Made by a program: the position numbers and the translations under genes
Notes under the pieces: generated by a model
The model's database searches: none
Seen by the model: only the letters and a program-made list of their open reading frames with translations
What the model was told of the DNA's origin: nothing
Part shown: piece by piece, positions 2,166 to 18,148 of the stretch
Numbering within the stretch: position 1 is the stretch's first letter
Layout of the letters: each line of letters begins with the position of its first letter
Assembly (NCBI GenBank): GCA_900540595.1
Contig: UQGL01000040.1
Span: 1-18,267, forward strand
Direction of reading: 5' to 3'
Length of the DNA stretch: 18,267 bases
Source: an uncultured Oscillospiraceae bacterium
GTDB taxonomy: Bacteria > Bacillota > Clostridia > Oscillospirales > Ruminococcaceae

Positions 2166-3029
2166 TTACGGGTTGGTGTTCTGCGGGGTGGTTTCCTTTT
2201 CCAGCGCGGACAGATACTTGCTCGGCGGCACGCCCTTGACCTTTTTGAACACGCGGGAGAAGTAGAACTGGTCAAAGAAGCCCACCGACACGGCGATCTC
2301 AGCAATAGAAAGGCCGGAGTTTTTCAGCAGGCTGCAGGCCTCACTGACACGGTAGTTCGTCAGGTAGTCGATGGGGCTCTGCCCGACATTCGACATGAAA
2401 ACACGATACAGATGGCTGCGGCTGACGCCGACCGCCTTGGCAATGTCGTCCACCGAGATGTCGTGCGAGTAGTTGAACTGGATAAACTTGATGGCGGCCA
2501 GCACATACTGGCTGCTCGACGAGCCTACATTGGGCATGGCCTCGCGGGCTTCCTTCATCAGGTGCGCCATAAATATGTACAGGTAGCCCGTCATCATTGC
2601 CTCGCAGTGAGGCTCCGGCCCGCGGGAAAGATAGATGTTGTACAGCGCTTCCCGCGCGGTCTGCAGATCCCGGCAGTGGTGTACAGGGTGCGCCTCGGAA
2701 AACGGGGTCTGCTGCACAAGCTTATTGGCGCACGCGCCGTTGAAGCCGACCCAGTAATACTCCCACGGGTCGGTCTCATCAGCGGCGTAGGTGATGAGCT
2801 GGTTCGGCTTGGCGAGGAACAGATCACCCTCCTGCAGGGTGTGCGATGCACCGTTGACCTGATAGACACCCTTGCCCGCTACGACCAGATGGATCAGGTA
2901 GTGGTCGCGCACGCCGGGGCCCCAAGTGTGGCCCGGCTGGCACTGCTCACGTCCGCAGTTAAAGATTGAGAGCTCGACATTATCTGTGTAGCTCTGCTTG
3001 TAGGATTGCTTCATCTCATTGATGGTCAT
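2166..3029 (-). CDS. AraC-family transcriptional regulator (cupin plus two HTH)
   Basis: A 287-residue regulator. An N-terminal cupin-like sensing domain (about 38-95) has RDHYLIHLVVAGKGVYQVNG and then LQEGDLFLAKPNQLITY, the usual pattern of sugar-sensing AraC proteins. Two helix-turn-helix motifs follow: ISVDDIAKAVGVSRSHLYRV at about 191-210, and SIAEIAVSVGFFDQFYFSRV at about 241-260 followed by FKKVKGVPPSKY. GAGGTG lies about six bases before the ATG, and a strong promoter reads into it. It is divergent from the galactokinase across a 219-base gap, so galactose or an alpha- or beta-galactoside is the likely inducer; this is inferred from context. It may also be co-transcribed with rlmD downstream. 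Confidence 0.9.
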   Translation of the reverse strand: MTINEMKQSYKQSYTDNVELSIFNCGREQCQPGHTWGPGVRDHYLIHLVVAGKGVYQVNGASHTLQEGDLFLAKPNQLITYAADETDPWEYYWVGFNGACANKLVQQTPFSEAHPVHHCRDLQTAREALYNIYLSRGPEPHCEAMMTGYLYIFMAHLMKEAREAMPNVGSSSSQYVLAAIKFIQFNYSHDISVDDIAKAVGVSRSHLYRVFMSNVGQSPIDYLTNYRVSEACSLLKNSGLSIAEIAVSVGFFDQFYFSRVFKKVKGVPPSKYLSALEKETTPQNTNP

Positions 3030-3057
3030 GGCTGCACCTCACTTCTGTGATATTCCT

Positions 3058-3086
3058 ATTATAGCAAGCTATTCATCAAAAGTCCA
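3058..3086 (-). promoter_or_regulatory. Promoter of the araC-type gene
   Basis: On the minus strand TGGACT (3086-3081) is followed after 17 bases by TATAAT (3063-3058), with TGC directly before the -10 box (extended -10). The predicted start is near 3050, leaving a short leader before the ATG at 3029. Confidence 0.75.
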
Positions 3087-3092
3087 TAAAAG
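3074..3092. promoter_or_regulatory. Short direct repeat in the araC/galK divergent region, possible operator
   Basis: CATCAAAAG (3074-3082) and CATAAAAG (3085-3092) repeat with an 11-base start-to-start spacing, one helical turn. The pair overlaps the -35 box of the regulator and lies 16 bases upstream of the galK -35 box, where an AraC-type protein could act on both promoters. The match is short and AT-rich, so it is only a candidate. Confidence 0.3.
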
Positions 3093-3107
3093 AGCCTGAA
3101 ATTATGT

Positions 3108-3135
3108 TTGCTTTTTTTGCAGGATTTGCTATACT
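3108..3135 (+). promoter_or_regulatory. Promoter of galK
   Basis: TTGCTT (3108-3113), a 16-base spacer and TATACT (3130-3135) with an upstream TGC (extended -10). The weak -35 box fits a promoter that needs an activator. The transcript would begin near 3142 and carry a leader of about 105 bases. Confidence 0.6.
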
Positions 3136-3190
3136 GAAAACAAGAAATCGACAGAGAGCTGTTCGTTTGGCTGTCTGCCTAAAAAAGAAA

Positions 3191-3222
3191 GGCTCATTTT
3201 GTGCATATCTACGAAAAGAGCC
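3191..3222 (+). promoter_or_regulatory. Hairpin in the galK leader just upstream of the ribosome binding site
   Basis: GGCTC and TTTT pair with AAAA and GAGCC (one bulged A), around a loop of about 13 bases. It ends seven bases before the AGGAAAGGTGAG ribosome binding site of galK. A weaker hairpin precedes it at 3152-3178 (CAGAGAGC with GCTGTCTG, one mismatch). There is no T run, so it is not a terminator. A role in translation or RNA stability is possible. Confidence 0.4.
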
Positions 3223-3248
3223 GCCCGACAGGAAAGGTGAGTGGAATC

Positions 3249-4550
3249 ATGGCAAATACCATTGAACTCAAACAGCAGATCGCACAGGGCGAATATGACG
3301 CCGCCTTTACCAAGCTGTACGGTGCATCCGCCGTGCAGGAGCAGCGCAAGCGCTATACCGACCTGATCGATGAATTTGAAAAGAAGTACGGCACCTCCCG
3401 CACGGTCCGTCTTTACTCTGCCCCCGGCCGCACCGAGATCGGCGGCAACCACACCGACCATAACAACGGCGTGGTGCTGGCCGGCTCCGTCAATTTGGAT
3501 ATGGTTGCGGTCGTTTCCCCCAATGAGGATAACATCATCCGCGTCAAGTCCCTGGGCTTTGACAAGATCGATGATGTCGATGTCAATGTTCTGGTTCCGC
3601 AGCCGCAGGAGGCTGAGCACTCCGCCTCTCTGATCCGCGGCGTGGCAAAGGGCATTGTGGATGCCGGCGGCAAGGTGGGCGGCTTTGACTGCTACAGCAC
3701 CAGCAATGTGCTGCGCGGCTCCGGCCTGTCCAGCTCTGCAGCGTTTGAGGTCTGCATCGGTGCCATCCTGCGCGGCGAATATAACAACAATGACATGGAG
3801 AAGTTCAGTCAGGTCAAGATCGCACAGATCGGCCAGTTTGCGGAGAATGTTTTCTTCGGCAAGCCCTGCGGACTGATGGATCAGACGGCCTGCGCGGTCG
3901 GCGGTGTCATCACCATCGACTTTAAGAATCCCGAAAAGCCTGTTGTTGGCCAGACTGCCATTGATCTTGCCAAGCACGGCTTTGTCATGTGCATCAGCGA
4001 TACGAAGGGCAGCCATGCTGACCTGACTGACGACTATGCCGCCATCCGCCGTGAGATGGAGAGTGTTGCAGAGCAGTTCGGCAAGAAGGTCCTGCGCGAT
4101 GTGGACGAGGACGAGTTCTACAAGGCTATCCCGCAGCTGCGCAAGGCTGTGGGTGACCGCGCTGTTGTCCGCGCTATCCACTTCTACAACGACTGCCGCC
4201 GCGCCGCGCAGCTCTGCGACGCCGTGCGCGATGATGATTTTGATACCTTCCTCAAACTCATCATCGAGGGCGGCCACTCCAGCTTTGAGTTCAACCAGAA
4301 TGCCTACAGCATCAAGGCCCCGCAGGAGCAGGGTGTGCCGCTGGCGCTGGCGCTGAGCCAGAAGGTGCTGAACGGCCGTGGTGCATGGCGCTTGCAGGGC
4401 GGCGGCTTTGCAGGCACCATTCAGGCGTTTGTCCCCGTCGATCTGCTGGATACCTACAAGGCGGCCATTGACGGCTGCTTCGGCGAGGGCAGCTGCCATG
4501 TGCTGAACATCCGCAACTACGGTGCTGTGCCCGTCACGCCCGACATGTAA
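3249..4550 (+). CDS. galK: Galactokinase (GHMP kinase family)
   Basis: A 433-residue cytoplasmic sugar kinase, expected to convert galactose and ATP to galactose-1-phosphate at the entry to the Leloir pathway. The galactokinase signature appears as APGRTEIGGNHTDHNNG near residue 60, then the GHMP ATP-binding loop LRGSGLSSSAAFEVCIGA near residue 157 and the C-terminal GGGFAGT motif near 389. The EIGGNHTDHN form differs from the E. coli-type NLIGEHTDYN and is typical of a Firmicutes subgroup, so substrate choice could differ somewhat. The start is the ATG at 3249, after AGGAAAGGTGAG. A GTG at 3201 would add 16 residues with no family match and would lie inside a leader hairpin. It stands alone, divergent from the AraC-family gene, and ends at a strong terminator. 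Confidence 0.9.
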   Translation: MANTIELKQQIAQGEYDAAFTKLYGASAVQEQRKRYTDLIDEFEKKYGTSRTVRLYSAPGRTEIGGNHTDHNNGVVLAGSVNLDMVAVVSPNEDNIIRVKSLGFDKIDDVDVNVLVPQPQEAEHSASLIRGVAKGIVDAGGKVGGFDCYSTSNVLRGSGLSSSAAFEVCIGAILRGEYNNNDMEKFSQVKIAQIGQFAENVFFGKPCGLMDQTACAVGGVITIDFKNPEKPVVGQTAIDLAKHGFVMCISDTKGSHADLTDDYAAIRREMESVAEQFGKKVLRDVDEDEFYKAIPQLRKAVGDRAVVRAIHFYNDCRRAAQLCDAVRDDDFDTFLKLIIEGGHSSFEFNQNAYSIKAPQEQGVPLALALSQKVLNGRGAWRLQGGGFAGTIQAFVPVDLLDTYKAAIDGCFGEGSCHVLNIRNYGAVPVTPDM

Positions 4551-9263: not shown

Positions 9264-10808
9264 ATGCAGCAGGAAACCGTTATCGTTCTGGATTTCGGCG
9301 GCCAGTATAATCAGCTGATCGCGCGCCGCGTCCGCGAATGCAACGTATATTGCGAGATCTATTCTTACCGTACCGACCTTGCCAAGATCAAGGCCAAAAA
9401 CCCGAAGGGCATCATCTTCACCGGCGGCCCCAACAGCGCCTATCTGCCGGATTCGCCCACGATCGACCCCGAAATCTTTACTTGGGGTGTGCCCATCCTC
9501 GGCATCTGCTACGGCAGCCAGCTGATGATGCATATGCTGGGCGGCAAGGTCTGCAAGGCCCCCGAGCGTGAGTACGGCAAAACGCTGGTCGATCTGGATA
9601 CTGCCAGCCCGCTGTTTGATACGCTGCCCGCCCAGAATGTCTGCTGGATGAGCCATAACGATTATATCGAGCAGGCAGCCCCCGGCTTTGAGATTATTGC
9701 CCATACCCCAAACTGCCCGGTGGCCGCTGCGCAGGATAAGGCCCGTGGCCTGTATGCTGTGCAGTTCCACCCCGAGGTTCTGCACACTGAGAACGGCACC
9801 AAGATCCTGCACAACTTTGTGTATAAGGTCTGCGGCTGCGCCGGTGACTGGAAGATGGACTCCTTTGTCGAGAACTCCGTCAAGGCCCTGCGCGAGAAGA
9901 TCGGCGACGGCAAGGTGCTGTGCGCCCTGTCCGGCGGTGTCGATTCCAGCGTCTGCGCGGCTATGCTGGCCAAGGCCATCGGCAAGCAGCTGACCTGCGT
10001 TTTCGTTGACCACGGTCTGCTGCGCAAGAACGAGCGCGAGCAGGTCTGCGAGGTCTTTGGCGAGGGCGGTCAGTTTGACATCAACTTTGTCTGCGTTGAC
10101 GCCCGCGACCGCTTCTACAAGAAGCTGGCCGGCGTAGAGGCCCCCGAGAGCAAGCGCAAGATCATCGGCGAGGAGTTTATCCGCGTATTCGAGGATGAAG
10201 CAAAAAAGATCGGCGCTGTGGACTTTTTGGCACAGGGCACGATCTACCCCGATGTCGTGGAGAGCGGCCTCGGCGGCGAAAGCGCCACTATCAAAAGCCA
10301 CCACAATGTCGGCGGTCTGCCCGATTATGTTGACTTCAAGGAGATCGTGGAGCCGCTGCGCGACCTGTTCAAGGACGAGGTCCGTCAGGCCGGCCGCGAG
10401 CTGGGTCTGCCAGAGTACCTTGTTGCCCGCCAGCCGTTCCCCGGCCCGGGTCTGGCTATCCGCATTATTGGCGATGTGACCCCCGAAAAGGTCGCCATCG
10501 TGCAGGATGCCGATGCCATCTGGCGTGAGGAGGTCGATAAACTCCCCATGGCCCAGCGCCCCAGCCAGTACTTTGCCGCGCTGACCAACATGCGCAGTGT
10601 CGGTGTCATGGGTGATGAGCGCACCTACGATTACGCCATTGCCCTGCGCGCCGTAACCACCACCGATTTTATGACCGCCGAGGTCACAATCCTGCCGACC
10701 GAAACCATCACCACCGCAGCCAACCGCATCGTGAACGAAGTCAAGAACATCAACCGCGTCATGTTCGACTACACCACGAAACCGCCGGCAACGATTGAGT
10801 TTGAATGA
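9264..10808 (+). CDS. guaA: GMP synthase, glutamine-hydrolysing
   Basis: A 514-residue enzyme converting XMP to GMP with ATP and glutamine, the last step of guanine nucleotide synthesis. The class I glutaminase domain (about 1-195) has nucleophile C82 in GICYGSQ and the H169/E171 pair in QFHPEV. The ATP pyrophosphatase domain has SGGVDSS at 223-229. The C-terminal dimerisation domain has [15 protein letters not shown] and ends [11 protein letters not shown]. All catalytic motifs are intact and the length is normal. AAGGGAG lies seven bases before the ATG. The 3' end of guaA is a known integration site for several mobile elements (Tn5801 is one), and an integrase module starts just downstream here. 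Confidence 0.97.
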
Positions 10809-10917
10809 TTTGAAATCGTTGATAATCATTGCAGTAACGATAAAATTTGAAACATTGATAGTTGTCTGATACTGCTTTGATACTAACTGAAGATTATTCG
10901 CACTGAGAGACGCAGAA
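10809..10917. other. guaA-distal spacer with 11-base phased TGATACT repeats
   Basis: This AT-rich spacer between guaA and its terminator contains TGATAGT (10856), TGATACT (10867) and TGATACT (10878) at exact 11-base intervals. TTGAAATCGTTGATA (10810) and TTGAAACATTGATA (10847) also resemble each other. Helically phased short repeats beside an integration target suggest protein binding, for example integrase or excisionase arm sites. I see no ORF here. Confidence 0.4.
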
Positions 10918-10957
10918 CGCCCTCTGAAAAACGGTGAGTTTTTCAGAGGGCGTTTTT
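10918..10957 (+). terminator. Strong Rho-independent terminator downstream of guaA
   Basis: A perfect 15-base-pair stem (10918-10932 with 10938-10952, arms CGCCCTCTGAAAAAC and its complement), a 5-base loop GGTGA and then TTTTT. The minus strand lacks a matching T run after the stem. It lies 110 bases beyond the guaA stop, with the XRE gene ending right behind it. Confidence 0.93.
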
Positions 10958-10961
10958 GTCT

Positions 10962-11468
10962 CTATTTTTCTTTTCGCCACTTTCTGTGGTATGTTTCAGG
11001 ATAACAGGCATCAGCAGTTGCAGGCCAGTTGAGTCTCCATTCGGTGTATTCTTCTTGTGTAATTTCTCCATTTGCAAGTTGCTCTTTGCGCAACTTCCAT
11101 TCCCCTAGATAGTCTTCCATGCGGTCATAATCATAAATAATAGCGATGCGTTTTTTGGGCTGCTGAGAACCACTGTCATCAAGCACATCGACTAGTCTAA
11201 TACCGGGATGTTGGTCGTCTTGATCGAAAAGAGTATACATAACATCTTCTGCGCAATACATATCAGGTTCATAAAGAGCATAGAAACTGACATCTAAGAC
11301 ATCCGCAATTTTATGAAGTAAAGCATCTTTAGGCTTACGGGTATTGCTTTCGTATTGTGCGATACGAACATCGGCGCCTCGTTTATTAAATCCAACTGCA
11401 ACGCCTAACTCCTTTTGAGTCATACCGCGAAAGACGCGCGCTTTCTTTATTCGATCACCAATTGACAA
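10962..11468 (-). CDS. XRE-family repressor of the integration module
   Basis: A 168-residue protein with an N-terminal helix-turn-helix of the Cro/CI type (SIGDRIKKARVFRGMTQKEL, then VRIAQYESNTRKPKDALLHK and IADVLDVSFYALYEP). An acidic middle region and a C-terminal helical part (LRKEQLANGEITQEEYTEWR) follow. The C-terminal part does not match the metallopeptidase-cleaved ImmR type in any way I can see. The preferred start is the TTG at 11468-11466, with AAGGAG nine bases upstream. An ATG at 11510 lies just after the predicted transcription start and lacks a ribosome binding site. It is divergent from the excisionase/integrase genes and probably represses them and itself. Moderate GC and position suggest it belongs to the mobile element. 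Confidence 0.85.
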   Translation of the reverse strand: MSIGDRIKKARVFRGMTQKELGVAVGFNKRGADVRIAQYESNTRKPKDALLHKIADVLDVSFYALYEPDMYCAEDVMYTLFDQDDQHPGIRLVDVLDDSGSQQPKKRIAIIYDYDRMEDYLGEWKLRKEQLANGEITQEEYTEWRLNWPATADACYPETYHRKWRKEK

Positions 11469-11531
11469 CGTTAATAACTCCTTCGTACTGTGAGTGTACA
11501 AGCGCAGCATTGCATGAACGACTGCATGAGT

Positions 11532-11560
11532 ATTATACCATTAAACTATTAAAATCGCAA
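11532..11560 (-). promoter_or_regulatory. Promoter of the XRE gene
   Basis: On the minus strand TTGCGA (11560-11555), 17 bases, then TATAAT (11537-11532). The predicted start is near 11525. Bases 11561-11593 between the two divergent promoters are AT-rich, with no other signal seen. Confidence 0.75.
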
Positions 11561-11593
11561 CAAAAATTTAACAAAAAAGTTTAGGAAAAAAGA

Positions 11594-11681
11594 GCTTAGA
11601 TAATTGGCTTAACTAGATATGCTTAGTATAATGGAGAAAACGTTAAACATATAAGCTTAGTCAAAAAGAAAAAGGACTTAA
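11594..11681. promoter_or_regulatory. Repeated GCTTAG/GCTTAA boxes, likely repressor operators
   Basis: GCTTAG at 11594, GCTTAA at 11607, GCTTAG at 11621 and GCTTAG at 11655, plus ACTTAA at 11676, all on the plus strand. The second box overlaps the -35 element and the third sits in the spacer against the -10 of the excisionase promoter. Bound repressor would therefore block it. The adjacent XRE protein is the natural candidate. Confidence 0.5.
11604..11632 (+). promoter_or_regulatory. Promoter of the excisionase/integrase operon
   Basis: TTGGCT (11604-11609), 17 bases, then TATAAT (11627-11632). The transcript would start near 11639 and have a leader of about 150 bases before the excisionase ATG at 11790. 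Confidence 0.75.
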
Positions 11682-11696
11682 CTGGCAAAAGGTCAA

Positions 11697-11741
11697 GCTT
11701 CAAATAGGAAAGGACTATGTGGGGCGACATAGGTGTGAAGC
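11697..11741 (+). promoter_or_regulatory. Two-part stem in the excisionase leader
   Basis: The outer arms GCTTCA (11697-11702) and TGAAGC (11736-11741) enclose a perfect inner hairpin CTATGT-GGGGCG-ACATAG (11715-11732). No T run follows, so it is not a terminator. The inner stem contains the start codon of a possible 16-residue leader peptide. Confidence 0.5.
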
Positions 11742-11767
11742 GTCAATCATTCAGCCAGTTGAAATAA
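11717..11767 (+). CDS. Possible 16-residue leader peptide before the excisionase gene
   Basis: The reading frame MWGDIGVKRQSFSQLK runs from ATG at 11717 to TAA at 11765-11767. AGGA at 11706-11709 lies seven bases upstream. The start codon is inside the perfect hairpin 11715-11732, so initiation could depend on RNA folding. It stops 22 bases before the excisionase ATG. Its short length makes chance occurrence possible. Confidence 0.35.
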   Translation: MWGDIGVKRQSFSQLK

Positions 11768-11789
11768 ATATTTGAATGAGGAACATAAA

Positions 11790-12137
11790 ATGGATAAAAG
11801 TATTTTTATCAGAGCAGACGAACTTGCTGTAGAATTAGATGTTTCTAAGGCATTGGCTTATAAGATGATCAACCAGTGGAACGAGGAACTGAAAGCCAAA
11901 GGCTATACCACTGTGGGTGGCCGTGTAAGCCGCCAGTACTATTACGAAAAGATTTACGGTGCGGAAAAGGAGAAAGTCGATGCCTGCGTACAAGGATGCC
12001 CAAAAGGGTACATGGTATGCAGCCTTTTACTATCAGGATTGGAAAGGCATCAAGAAAAAGAAATTAAAGCGCGGCTTTCCCACAAAGAAAGAAGCCTTGG
12101 CGTGGGAACGCACATTTCTTCTTCAGCAGGCTGCTGA
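11790..12137 (+). CDS. Excisionase-like winged-helix protein with run-on C-terminus
   Basis: The first about 57 residues (SIFIRADELAVELDVSKALA, then GGRVSRQYYYEKIYG) match the small helix-turn-helix proteins that sit before tyrosine integrases in Firmicutes elements and direct excision. These are normally near 65-70 residues long. Here the frame continues to 115 residues and overlaps the integrase out of frame by 158 bases. The extra residues look like an incidental reading of integrase DNA, so the natural stop was probably lost through a small indel. The start is the ATG at 11790 (GAGGAA six bases upstream), not the TTG at 11772. The function of the N-terminal domain may be kept. Confidence 0.75.
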   Translation: MDKSIFIRADELAVELDVSKALAYKMINQWNEELKAKGYTTVGGRVSRQYYYEKIYGAEKEKVDACVQGCPKGYMVCSLLLSGLERHQEKEIKARLSHKERSLGVGTHISSSAGC

Positions 12138-12969
12138 CTTGACCATGACATTTGAAGCCTTTGTAGAAATCTATATTGTTGACAAGCAGAACCGTCTGCG
12201 TGAGAATACATGGTCCACTAAAGAGCATATCATTCGCACTAAGATACTGCCGTACTTCAAAGAAAAACGACTTTGCGATATTAAACCGCAGGATGTCATC
12301 GCGTGGCAGAATGAATTGTTAAACTACCGCGGCAAAAACGGAGAACCGTATTCTCCAACGTACCTGAAAACACTGCACAGTCAATTCAGTGCGATTCTGA
12401 ACCACGCGGTACGATTCTATGGACTGAACAAAAATGCAGCAACGACTGCGGGCAATATGGGCTCTTCCAAGCACCAAGAGATGCTGTTCTGGACAAAAGA
12501 GGAATATCTCAAATTTGCAGAAGTGATGATGGACAAGCCGTTATCTTACTATGCGTTTGAAATCCTCTACTGGTGCGGTATCCGCGAGGGAGAACTGCTG
12601 GCGCTGACACCCGCAGATTTTGATTTGGACAAAGGGCTACTCTCTATCACAAAATCCTATCAGCGTTTGAATGGCAAAGATGTGATTACAGACCCCAAGA
12701 CACCGAAAAGCGTTCGGGTCGTTCAAATGCCGGATTTTCTGACAGAGGAAATCCGAGACTATCTGAAATCGCTTTACAAGGTGAAGCCGACTGACCGAAT
12801 CTTTGAGGTGACTAAGTATTATTTACATCACGAAATGGACAGGGGCGCAAAAGAGGCCAGGGTCAAGCGCATCAGAATCCACGATTTGCGGCACCCGTAT
12901 GTCAAGCCCAAGACAAAAAAATTTATAACTTTTTTTGAAGTTTTTGGGCAGCTTCATAGCTGCCCATAG
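11980..12969 (+). pseudogene. Tyrosine integrase, truncated within the HxxR catalytic box
   Basis: The start is the ATG at 11980 with AAAAGGAG seven bases upstream. An N-terminal AP2-like arm-binding domain (YKDAQKGTWYAAFYYQDWKG, then GFPTKKEALAWERTF) is followed by the SAM-like core-binding domain (about 55-160) and the catalytic domain. That domain retains the first arginine in WCGIREGELLALTPADFDL and the beta-strand lysine region (TDPKTPKSVRVVQMP). The sequence reads normally to RIRIHDLRH (codons ending at 12894), where relatives continue with SHAS, the second H/W and the tyrosine nucleophile. Instead 24 unrelated residues follow and then TAG. The nucleophile is missing, so this copy cannot recombine. 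The break marks the edge of the serine-recombinase element. Confidence 0.9.
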
Positions 12970-12992: not shown

Positions 12993-14534
12993 TTATACCT
13001 CCTTTTCGGATTCCTTAGTTTCTAAGAAATCCTGTGTTGCATATTCAATCTCAATCCGATCTCCTGGAAAGACGTAAACTTTGTTGATAAGCCGGTCAAT
13101 CAGAGCTTTTGTCAGAATGTTGGCGTTTCCGACTTCCTGCACAATTTCCTGTTGTTTCAGCTTAATCTCATAATCACTTTTTATCTGCTTTGTCTGTGCA
13201 GTGATGACAGCATGAACATTTTTGGCTTGTACCAGTTCCGTGTCATAAACCGCTTTTCGTGTTCGATAGGTTTCCAAATCAATCTCTCCGAGTGCATACT
13301 GCTCATAAAGATGCCGCTTGCTGTCTTGAATAGAACGGAGTTTTTCTTCATGTTCGGCCTGCTGGACTGTCTGCAAATCCAATTTATCCTTATTGCTATC
13401 AATTCCCAATGCCGGACACATTTGAGCCCGAATTGTTTCAAATACAACCTGCTCCAGATCTGCCATCTTTATGCGCACACCATGACAAGGAAGCGTTTCA
13501 GCCACCTCGGAATGACGGCAATAAAACCACGCACCATTTCGTAGAGACATTGCATGATCGCAGCATCCACAGAATACCTTACCACGGAGCAGATAATCAC
13601 GCGGCTTTTTATTTAACAGAGAGAAACGCTTAATAGAAGCATTGGCTTTCTCAAATAGATCCACACTTACAATAGCCGGATGATGGTTCGGTATTTTGAA
13701 CCACTCACTTTCATCCTTTAACTGTGTATGTCGGCTGCCAATCTCTTTTACCTTTCTCTTGCCAATTACATAGGTACCGATATATCTTTGATCTTCTAAA
13801 ATACGCAGGACCGTTGATGTACTCCAAACGCCGTTTGTTCGGGAAACATTGTAATAGTCCTTGCCTTTAAGTTTGCGATATTCCCCAGGGGTGGGGATAT
13901 TCATAGCATACAATCTTCTTGTGATCTCGGCTGCGGTGTTGCCTTCAGACGCCCATTGAAATATCATCTGCACATTCGGGGCAACATCCTCGTCCGGTTC
14001 CATACGTCCGTCTGCACTCTTGCGATAGCCGTAAGGACAGATGACACTCTGATATTCTCCACGACGCATCTTTGCGTATTTTGCACTTTTGGTTTTCATG
14101 GACATATCCCGGCTATAACACTCGCTAATAAGATACTTGAAAGCAATATCAATCCCTCCGGTATCACCTTTGAAATTAGCCGTGTCAAAATCATCACTGA
14201 CGGAAATAAAACGGGTGTGGTAAAGAGGAAATACCCGCTCAATAAAATAGCCGGTTTCAATGCTGTTACGTCCAAATCGGGAAAGGTCTTTTACAATAAT
14301 ACAGTTGATCTTTCCAGCCTGAACCATTGTTAAAAGTTCCTGCACCGCCGGACGCTCAAAGTTTGTCCCTGTATGACCATTGTCAATAAATTCCAAAATC
14401 TCACTGTTATCCCATTCCGGCAGAGACATAGCTTTTTCACGAAGAATCAGTTTTTGATTTGGTATACTCAAACTTTCGGTTTTGAAATCTTCCACAGAAA
14501 GACGGATATAAAGGGCAATCACATAGTTGCGCAC
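12993..14534 (-). CDS. Large serine recombinase, junction-proximal (third in operon)
   Basis: A 513-residue site-specific DNA recombinase. The N-terminal resolvase-type catalytic domain (about 1-150) has the nucleophile S13 in ALYIRLSVED and the conserved VKDLSRFGRNSIETGYFIE at 81-99. A recombinase domain spans about 165-290 (PYGYRK, then STSTVLRILEDQRYIGT). A zinc-ribbon DNA-binding region has C322, C325, C339 and C350. A coiled-coil segment follows, with the tail RIEIEYATQDF. The GTG start at 14534 overlaps the previous recombinase stop by 16 bases, with GGTGG upstream; a GTG directly on the stop codon is an alternative. Catalytic residues look intact. It probably acts on this element's ends, alone or with its two neighbours. 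Confidence 0.95.
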   Translation of the reverse strand: MRNYVIALYIRLSVEDFKTESLSIPNQKLILREKAMSLPEWDNSEILEFIDNGHTGTNFERPAVQELLTMVQAGKINCIIVKDLSRFGRNSIETGYFIERVFPLYHTRFISVSDDFDTANFKGDTGGIDIAFKYLISECYSRDMSMKTKSAKYAKMRRGEYQSVICPYGYRKSADGRMEPDEDVAPNVQMIFQWASEGNTAAEITRRLYAMNIPTPGEYRKLKGKDYYNVSRTNGVWSTSTVLRILEDQRYIGTYVIGKRKVKEIGSRHTQLKDESEWFKIPNHHPAIVSVDLFEKANASIKRFSLLNKKPRDYLLRGKVFCGCCDHAMSLRNGAWFYCRHSEVAETLPCHGVRIKMADLEQVVFETIRAQMCPALGIDSNKDKLDLQTVQQAEHEEKLRSIQDSKRHLYEQYALGEIDLETYRTRKAVYDTELVQAKNVHAVITAQTKQIKSDYEIKLKQQEIVQEVGNANILTKALIDRLINKVYVFPGDRIEIEYATQDFLETKESEKEV

Positions 14535-17932: not shown

Positions 17933-18148
17933 CTATCGTAAAATACCCTTGATACATTCTTCCAGGGTAGCACCTTCAGCAGAAAAGCTGGCCTGTACAG
18001 TAAAACGGCCACACTTAAAATGGTATGGATTTTTTATCTGCTGAACAAATTCTGCAATCCGTTCATCACGGGAAAGTTCTTTGTTGACAGAAACATCCCG
18101 AATGTCTACCAGCGTACCCACTTCACTGACAATGGTGTTCATTTCCAT
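17933..18148 (-). CDS. Small conserved mobile-element protein, DUF6870-like
   Basis: A 71-residue acidic protein. The text TLVDIRDVSVNKELSRDERI, then EFVQQIKNPYHFKCGRFTVQ, matches from memory a family of small proteins (DUF6870 or a close relative) that sits near recombinases in gut Firmicutes elements. No function is known to me; no membrane segment or HTH is evident. AGAAGGGAG lies eight bases before the ATG at 18148; a second ATG two codons on is less well placed. It is read toward the recombinase operon, with a 135-base gap containing that operon's promoter. Confidence 0.75.
   Translation of the reverse strand: MEMNTIVSEVGTLVDIRDVSVNKELSRDERIAEFVQQIKNPYHFKCGRFTVQASFSAEGATLEECIKGILR

Follow-up and report, generated by a model that had tools for sequence, protein, structure and literature searches.

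The window, an 18,267-bp stretch of DNA from an uncultured Oscillospiraceae bacterium, contains a tyrosine integrase gene that breaks off at its catalytic box, next to three large serine recombinase (LSR) genes, R1, R2 and R3 (Table 1). The integrase ORF (11959–12969, +) matches Arm-DNA-bind_4, Phage_int_SAM_3 and positions 10–134 of the 172 of Phage_integrase in Pfam. Its family homology ends at ...RIHDLRH (12894), with the cut falling within the histidine codon (12892–12894), and is followed by a 24-residue tail, PYVKPKTKKFITFFEVFGQLHSCP. Homologues of 95% and 85% identity (P0140 and P0172) read RHSHVSLLIEMGFSA(V/L)AIADRVGHES... in place of this tail, and close homologues continue past HDLRH with SHVSLLIEMGFSA...GHES.... 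Among the 120 homologues listed, HDLRH is followed by (S/T)(H/F) in 86 and by a PYVK tail in 21; seven read otherwise, six of these being SAVSLL... and intact-looking, and the motif is absent from six. The extent of the Pfam match and the homologues P0140 and P0172 bear out the preliminary description, in which the integrase read normally to HDLRH and then acquired an unrelated tail of 24 residues. One protein 99% identical to the window integrase (P0123) has a RhuM-like C-terminus after HDLRH and no PYVK tail. The split integrase lies downstream of guaA (9264–10808), and the region 10809–12137 also contains an HTH gene (10962–11510, -) and a small ORF that is excisionase-like by eye. In streptococci, ICEs have been reported to target guaA (PMC4701971).

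Table 1. Features of the window at the interrupted integrase and the adjoining recombinase genes.
Feature	Position	Strand	Basis
Tyrosine integrase, 5' half, ending after Arg-His of the HDLRH box	11959..12894	+	Pfam matches; intact homologues read SHVSLL... next
CA, inferred crossover dinucleotide within the His codon	12892..12893	+	Base counts in left and right flanks
End of the element, the left attP arm within attL: CCCGTATGTCAAGCCCAAGACAAAA	12894..12918	+	Common to 69 genome and 11 viral loci
24 foreign codons and a stop fused onto the integrase	12895..12969	+	PYVK tails on homologues (see text)
R3, 513-aa LSR closest to the element end	12993..14534	-	Pfam PF00239, PF07508, PF13408
R2, middle LSR, 549 aa	14519..16168	-	Pfam
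R1, inner LSR, 557 aa	16169..17842	-	Pfam
Small DUF6870 protein, encoded upstream of R1; might be a directionality factor (a guess)	17933..18148	-	Pfam PF21757

Each of the three recombinases has Resolvase, Recombinase and Zn-ribbon domains by Pfam, and all are transcribed toward the break, as had been described for this operon. In relatives with enough length to show it, the order R1-R2-R3 is preserved, and R3 starts ~100–200 bp from the element end in most copies where it was found. A database cluster 100% identical to R3 holds 18,096 member sequences. Several metagenomic proteins (P0007, P0008, P0012, P0018, P0048, P0051 and P0056) are R3 pieces of 93–99% identity joined to unrelated sequence, and fusions of R3 with topoisomerase, phosphorylase and other domains were set aside as likely assembly chimeras of a very abundant element.

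The same join recurs with different integrases in MT837243.1 (from human faeces, Mexico) and IMG/VR 2740892380_000018, where an element 99.8% identical over 5.4 kb is inserted at the same codon; it is therefore no assembly accident of the window. To survey such joins, a first left-end pattern conditioned on CAC yielded 11 loci in a viral collection, and the pattern CCGTATGTCAAGCCCNNGACAAAAA, which leaves the flank unconditioned, yielded the same 11 viral loci and 69 loci among 84,980 species genomes. Six loci (L015, L016, L017, L021, L001 and L003) had been dropped as second copies before counting, and the reversed pattern, used as a control, had zero matches in 27 genomes. An in-frame HxxRH directly precedes the element end in 56 of the 69 genome loci. 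As HxxRH is a sequence criterion only, this count includes L025, L029 and L058, in which the frame before the box is short and the right flank has no integrase half. Four other left ends are placed on the end of another such element (three after a type B and one after a type C right end, described below), one is at a contig start and not assessable, and eight are elsewhere (L032, L047, L052, L055, L071, L081, L089 and L091), several of them near misses such as HDLRP or HDLPH. Thirteen further left ends (the 11 viral loci, MT837243.1 and the window) follow HxxRH in 11 cases and are at a contig start in two. The preliminary description had proposed a serine-recombinase element in the integrase catalytic box, with the box as a possible portable target, and had suggested looking in other genomes for the same element end at integrase HDLRH sites; these counts agree with that reading.

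PF00589 is matched by 46 of the 58 left flanks scanned, these being the flanks with an open frame of at least 60 aa among 82 left ends; the other 24 frames are below 60 aa and were left unscanned. The interrupted genes are diverse: 45 N-halves of at least 150 aa form 22 clusters at 50% identity (single linkage), 33 at 70% and 37 at 90%. Five elements, including that of the window, have R3 proteins 97.9–100% identical to the window's, while their host-integrase N-halves align at only 22.6–50.6% identity (two of the ten pairs over only 67–80 aa). By record title, the hosts are mostly Lachnospiraceae and other Clostridia, together with an Erysipelotrichaceae MAG (L027) and Longibaculum muris (L087). 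The element end is present in 12 of 397 genomes from one family, a number that includes the centre genome and others already counted as known. In one contig (G002:C2), left ends at 177444 and 229737 point toward one another across 52 kb, each preceded by the same integrase fragment, an arrangement that could be an inversion or a misassembly.

Searching downstream for the missing integrase half located the far end of the element in relatives, where ...TTTGTCGTTATTATACCGTAAYGG-CA is followed by the integrase C-half. With three mismatches, the right-end pattern gave 33 matches, compared with 7 hits of the reversed control. Two three-mismatch matches were taken as chance, G013 (L166) and G011:C1:1425619 (no locus), and L166 is excluded from the right-flank counts. 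A loose C-half motif fits 30 of 34 distinct right flanks; L163 and L175 start C-half-like and then lose the likeness, and L025 and L174 (G011) are unlike it. The 3' half of the integrase (SHAS..., LGH...) that was expected beyond the element is found there in relatives, with both ends and both halves on one contig and in direct orientation in G006, G017 and G027 (copies of 69,468, 71,927 and 58,512 bp, respectively). G006 is E. plexicaudatum ASF492, and its copy lies inside a 6.3-Mb contig. A copy of 57,505 bp in G011 also has both ends, with no integrase in its right flank, and the contig ends coincide with the element edges of a 54,651-bp copy in G022. Complete copies of these triplet-LSR elements, referred to as type A, thus span 54–72 kb.

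N- and C-halves were compared in 13 genomes, namely one IMG genome and 12 of the 19 genomes that matched the right-end pattern, giving 14 combinations, with two right ends in G005. In 13 of the 14, the N-half ends and the C-half starts at consecutive residues of one intact homologue (e.g. 1-305/306-352 in G007, 5-309/310-364 in G017 and 117-443/444-492 in G021), which means that the cut residue is the same, not that halves on different contigs belong to one gene. The exception is G015, whose N-half alignment stops before the junction. Of the G005 combinations, one or both must be a mismatch, because the right end in G005 points the other way.

Such junctions could in principle be relics of non-specific insertion, or chimeras assembled from a common element and the common genes beside it. 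Many of the records are indeed MAGs, some database proteins with R3 fused to unrelated domains look chimeric, and contigs start or end at an element edge (G022:C20; IMG/VR 3300010261_000108). However, one codon is the junction in the large majority of the genome loci counted above, both halves occur on single contigs, including the 6.3-Mb one, and the reversed left-end control is empty. This explanation is already contradicted, and we consider it scarcely credible.

The base composition of the flanks defines the exchange site. The attB logo comprises 79 left flanks, including the eight off-target and four tandem left ends, and omits L010, L013 and L087, which have fewer than 30 bases upstream. 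In these flanks C is present in 79/79 and A in 77/79, and the next base is C in 79/79, which is read as the element's own; in the right flanks CA is present in 34/34 and the next base is T or C in 33/34, which is read as the target's own. With CA constant and the following base belonging to the element on the left and to the target on the right, the shared core is therefore CA. The crossover dinucleotide, which the preliminary description had left to be defined by comparison with empty sites, is inferred from these relatives to be the CA of CAY. No repeats beyond CA were seen at the junctions in the 79 left and 34 right flanks, and a repeat of 2 bp lies within the range of 2–8 bp by which ICEs with a serine recombinase triplet are recognized. 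Upstream of the core, third codon positions (-13, -7 and -4) vary, and T at -8 (78), G at -5 (75), C at -15 (76) and A at -14 (75) are near-invariant among the 79 left flanks. Around the CA core, the inferred attP arms are identical in 14 of 24 positions, compared with ~6 expected, and ACGACAAA is mirrored on both arms 17–24 nt from the core, with AAGACAAA in the window copy. The sequence thus has the symmetric attP around a central dinucleotide that is characteristic of integration by large serine recombinases. A second variant of the right arm, TTTTCCGAT or TTTTCCGGT with AGG or GGG before CA, is present in L173, L177, L182 and L187, and may point to further subfamilies with the same target.

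The complete copy in G022 contains a relaxase (PF03432), a coupling protein (PF02534), a P-loop_TraG ATPase and an M23/NLPC_P60 hydrolase, as well as a topoisomerase, a sigma-70 region 4 protein and a sortase/SpaA surface protein. Judged by gene content this copy is an ICE, a statement that applies to the single copy annotated, which is not the window's. Among the features that mark an ICE with a triplet, a relaxase, a coupling protein and a T4SS ATPase between the ends are present in the G022 copy, and three adjacent LSR genes in the same orientation at one element end are present in the window. R3 or a piece of it (at least 43% identity) faces the end in 39 of the 69 genome loci, and all three LSRs (at least 43% identity over at least 200 aa) are found in 15 of 69, many loci being cut by the locus edge. 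Apart from those 39, the loci consist of nine of type B, three of type C and 18 left unassigned, many of which are too short. Apparent deletion derivatives that retain both type A ends are 3,515, 4,895, 2,238 and 338 bp long. The smallest, in L085 (oriented 2916-3253; G424:C13), is a mini-element with a scrap of R3 that directly follows a type B cassette.

Type B cassettes (2.5–5.4 kb) share the left end of the larger elements and have a different right end, AATTTCATGACTTAGRCA, which resembles an attB half. The pattern for this right end gave 8 matches, compared with 1 control hit, in 27 genomes; a viral contig also found with it (L229) was unrelated. R1–R3 had no tblastn match in type B cassettes, and neither a recombinase nor a relaxase was found among their ORFs of at least 90 aa and the seven proteins scanned. 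They thus show neither the integrase of their own nor the relaxase of an IME, by tblastn, ORFs and protein scan. By the preliminary description, the same fused tail on elements that lack serine recombinases would refute its reading, and the tail does occur on such elements. Its main claim stands, because the elements in question are small, distinct ones that have this left end in common with the larger elements. As these LSR-less elements carry that end, the site is therefore shared beyond the triplet-LSR elements.

The presence of the left end on LSR-less 2.5–5.4 kb elements, and on the 338-bp mini-element, would also be compatible with an element of a different kind (IS, group II intron or DDE transposon) that targets integrases and carries the LSR triplet as a passenger. 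We regard this as very improbable, given the close and regular position of R3 with respect to the end, the LSR-like mirroring of the attP arms about a 2-bp core and the absence of junction repeats longer than CA; in addition, a scan of seven type B proteins gave no match to a transposase family. The existence of LSR-less copies had suggested a group II intron or an IS for the element end, which was discarded on the mirrored arms and the LSR position.

One LSR-less type B cassette of 5.06 kb is present at five different sites (G014:C34, G005:C34, G023:C76, G179:C9 and L055:2134-7193) with 96.2–99.0% identity. It encodes a KAP NTPase with a strong PifA match, a RhuM/PDC-S05 protein and a Fic/SoFic protein. 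Integrase-like sequence is found on both sides in G014, G023 and G179 and not in G005 and L055, and the NTPase frame is broken in G179. Among the other type B cassettes, that of G025 encodes Septu PtuA and PtuB, that of G026 a protein with a caspase domain and that of G424 a STAND NTPase of 1,315 aa that includes an LmuA-like part; in G018 the only ORFs are RhuM-like and Fic-like. Pfam identified the right-end Fic gene in one cassette, and in the others it was recognized by similarity. Type C cassettes (4.5–6 kb) have one LSR and a box-like right end, TTTGTCGCTTCCACGAGCTT..CA; two are in tandem in G014:C12 and one is in G024. The tandem pair (L131:7964-18567) lies inside one integrase with a defence-type gene in each cassette, a PDC-S53 helicase in one and, in the other, a 1,315-aa STAND protein that shares 75% identity with its G424 counterpart. 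Two stops interrupt the second LSR of this pair. Compared among complete elements, the triplet member nearest to the type C LSR is R2 (38%) rather than R3 (30%).

In L039, L076, L085 and L062 elements are joined in tandem, and the rebuilt sites are therefore in use. A search of nine genomes that have a type B right end gave no intact R3 orthologue: hits at E≤1e-50 are 28–42% identical, apart from a 77% identical R3 remnant in G005; a type C LSR was found at E≤1e-60 only in G014 among the nine. On balance, we favor the view that the integrase catalytic box is a common docking site for a guild of elements, comprising conjugative elements with an LSR triplet, 4.5–6 kb cassettes with one LSR and 2.5–5.4 kb cassettes with none. 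The small members would carry interchangeable systems of anti-phage type (PifA-like KAP NTPase, Septu PtuAB, caspase, STAND NTPase with an LmuA-like part, PDC-S53 helicase), with the right-end Fic gene retained in the LSR-less ones. A right end that mimics an attB half would rebuild the site with each insertion, such that defence arrays can build up in dead integrase genes and be mobilized in trans by recombinases absent from the cassettes.

SCC and cis-mobilizable cassettes are likewise small, occur with or without a recombinase, have one end that rebuilds attB and form tandem arrays. The cassettes described here resemble SCC in all these respects, but their site is in accessory integrase genes instead of one housekeeping gene, and a Fic gene recurs in them. 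A related passage on the att-site pairs of SCC is found in PMC5595907.

The box-like sites rebuilt by type B and type C right ends raise the question of a regulated switch, in which excision restores a working integrase when needed, as for skin and gin in sporulation genes. A precedent is gin, in which three serine recombinase genes interrupt gerE and which restores gerE in sporulation, as stated in a passage of PMC5595907. However, the integrases hit are numerous and unrelated (22 clusters at 50% identity), and intact and occupied alleles coexist, a pattern more suggestive of parasitism than of a single co-evolved switch. Either reading allows precise excision, and we judge a switch unlikely.

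The elements have clear counterparts in streptococci. ICEs with a serine-integrase triplet that target mutT, traG and hsdM have been described there (Ambroset et al. 2016, PMC4701971), and the passages drawn on here report three adjacent LSR genes in the same orientation at the element end, an ICE backbone, conserved genes disrupted by insertion (traG of another ICE among them) and direct repeats of 2–8 bp, all as in the present elements. In contrast to those ICEs, the target here is the RH codons of many tyrosine integrase families, the hosts are gut Clostridia and Erysipelotrichia, and the core is CA. Tn1806-like ICEs target genes of methyltransferase type (snf2, hsdM, Eco57I-type) with 4-bp repeats, and their nesting has been shown by mating (PMC12942858). 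They share with our elements triple serine integrases, several related targets, insertion within other ICEs (of the ICESa2603 family) and sizes of 49–72 kb, but the passages of that report drawn on here mention neither an integrase target nor recombinase-free defence cassettes. IMEs that insert site-specifically into conserved genes or oriT of resident ICEs are also similar (PMC5704250); unlike type B cassettes, they have their own recombinase, and the targets named in the relevant part of that paper are Maff2, SNF2 and traG genes or oriT, not the integrase gene. In the portions of the open-licence literature covered, which include passages of PMC10083194, PMC6814731 and PMC13089153, no integrase gene is named as the target of a serine-recombinase element, nor were recombinase-free defence cassettes at an integrase site found. 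Triplet-LSR ICEs as such are thus known, and the targeting of the integrase box and the recombinase-free defence cassettes found there are new in so far as neither was seen in the open-licence literature covered. Since the elements work like the known triplet-LSR ICEs and show the structural features examined, they are counted as a variant of those ICEs.

We conclude with high confidence that the break in the window is the attL of an ICE that uses its LSR triplet to integrate into the tyrosine integrase genes of other mobile elements. The LSRs would recognize the DNA of the HxLRH box with third codon positions ignored and exchange strands at CA, so that the resident integrase is split and serves as a portable attB. 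Both junctions, the crossover site, many targets, intact and occupied alleles and the ICE gene content of one complete copy are directly observed. In the proposed mechanism, the LSRs would pair attP with the box by reading its conserved codon positions, and strand exchange at the CA of the histidine codon would integrate the element and leave two half genes, an N-half ending in ...RH and a C-half beginning with (S/T)(H/F)A.... The resident element, its integrase deprived of the half with the tyrosine nucleophile, would be locked unless the nested element leaves. With the Tyr-bearing half lost to its integrase, independent integration or excision of the resident element is very probably impossible. 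From sequence, we infer catalysis by the LSRs, the locking of the resident and an aid to spread from free targeting.

Few parts of this very common gene family are as conserved as the box, and the attB is therefore portable across unrelated hosts and lies in DNA that the host does not need. Using the most conserved codons of a rival enzyme as the recombinase site is a simple way of obtaining an attachment site that is portable: every genome that harbors a mobile element of this kind offers a target, and insertion should be cost-free to the cell and crippling to the resident. A naturally degenerate LSR with a short consensus could be of use in genome engineering. Elements in the integrase box represent a testable conflict between mobile elements and account for some of the broken integrases in gut genomes. 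If the proposed role of the recombinase-free defence cassettes at this site is true, they would constitute a new route by which anti-phage systems move and accumulate.
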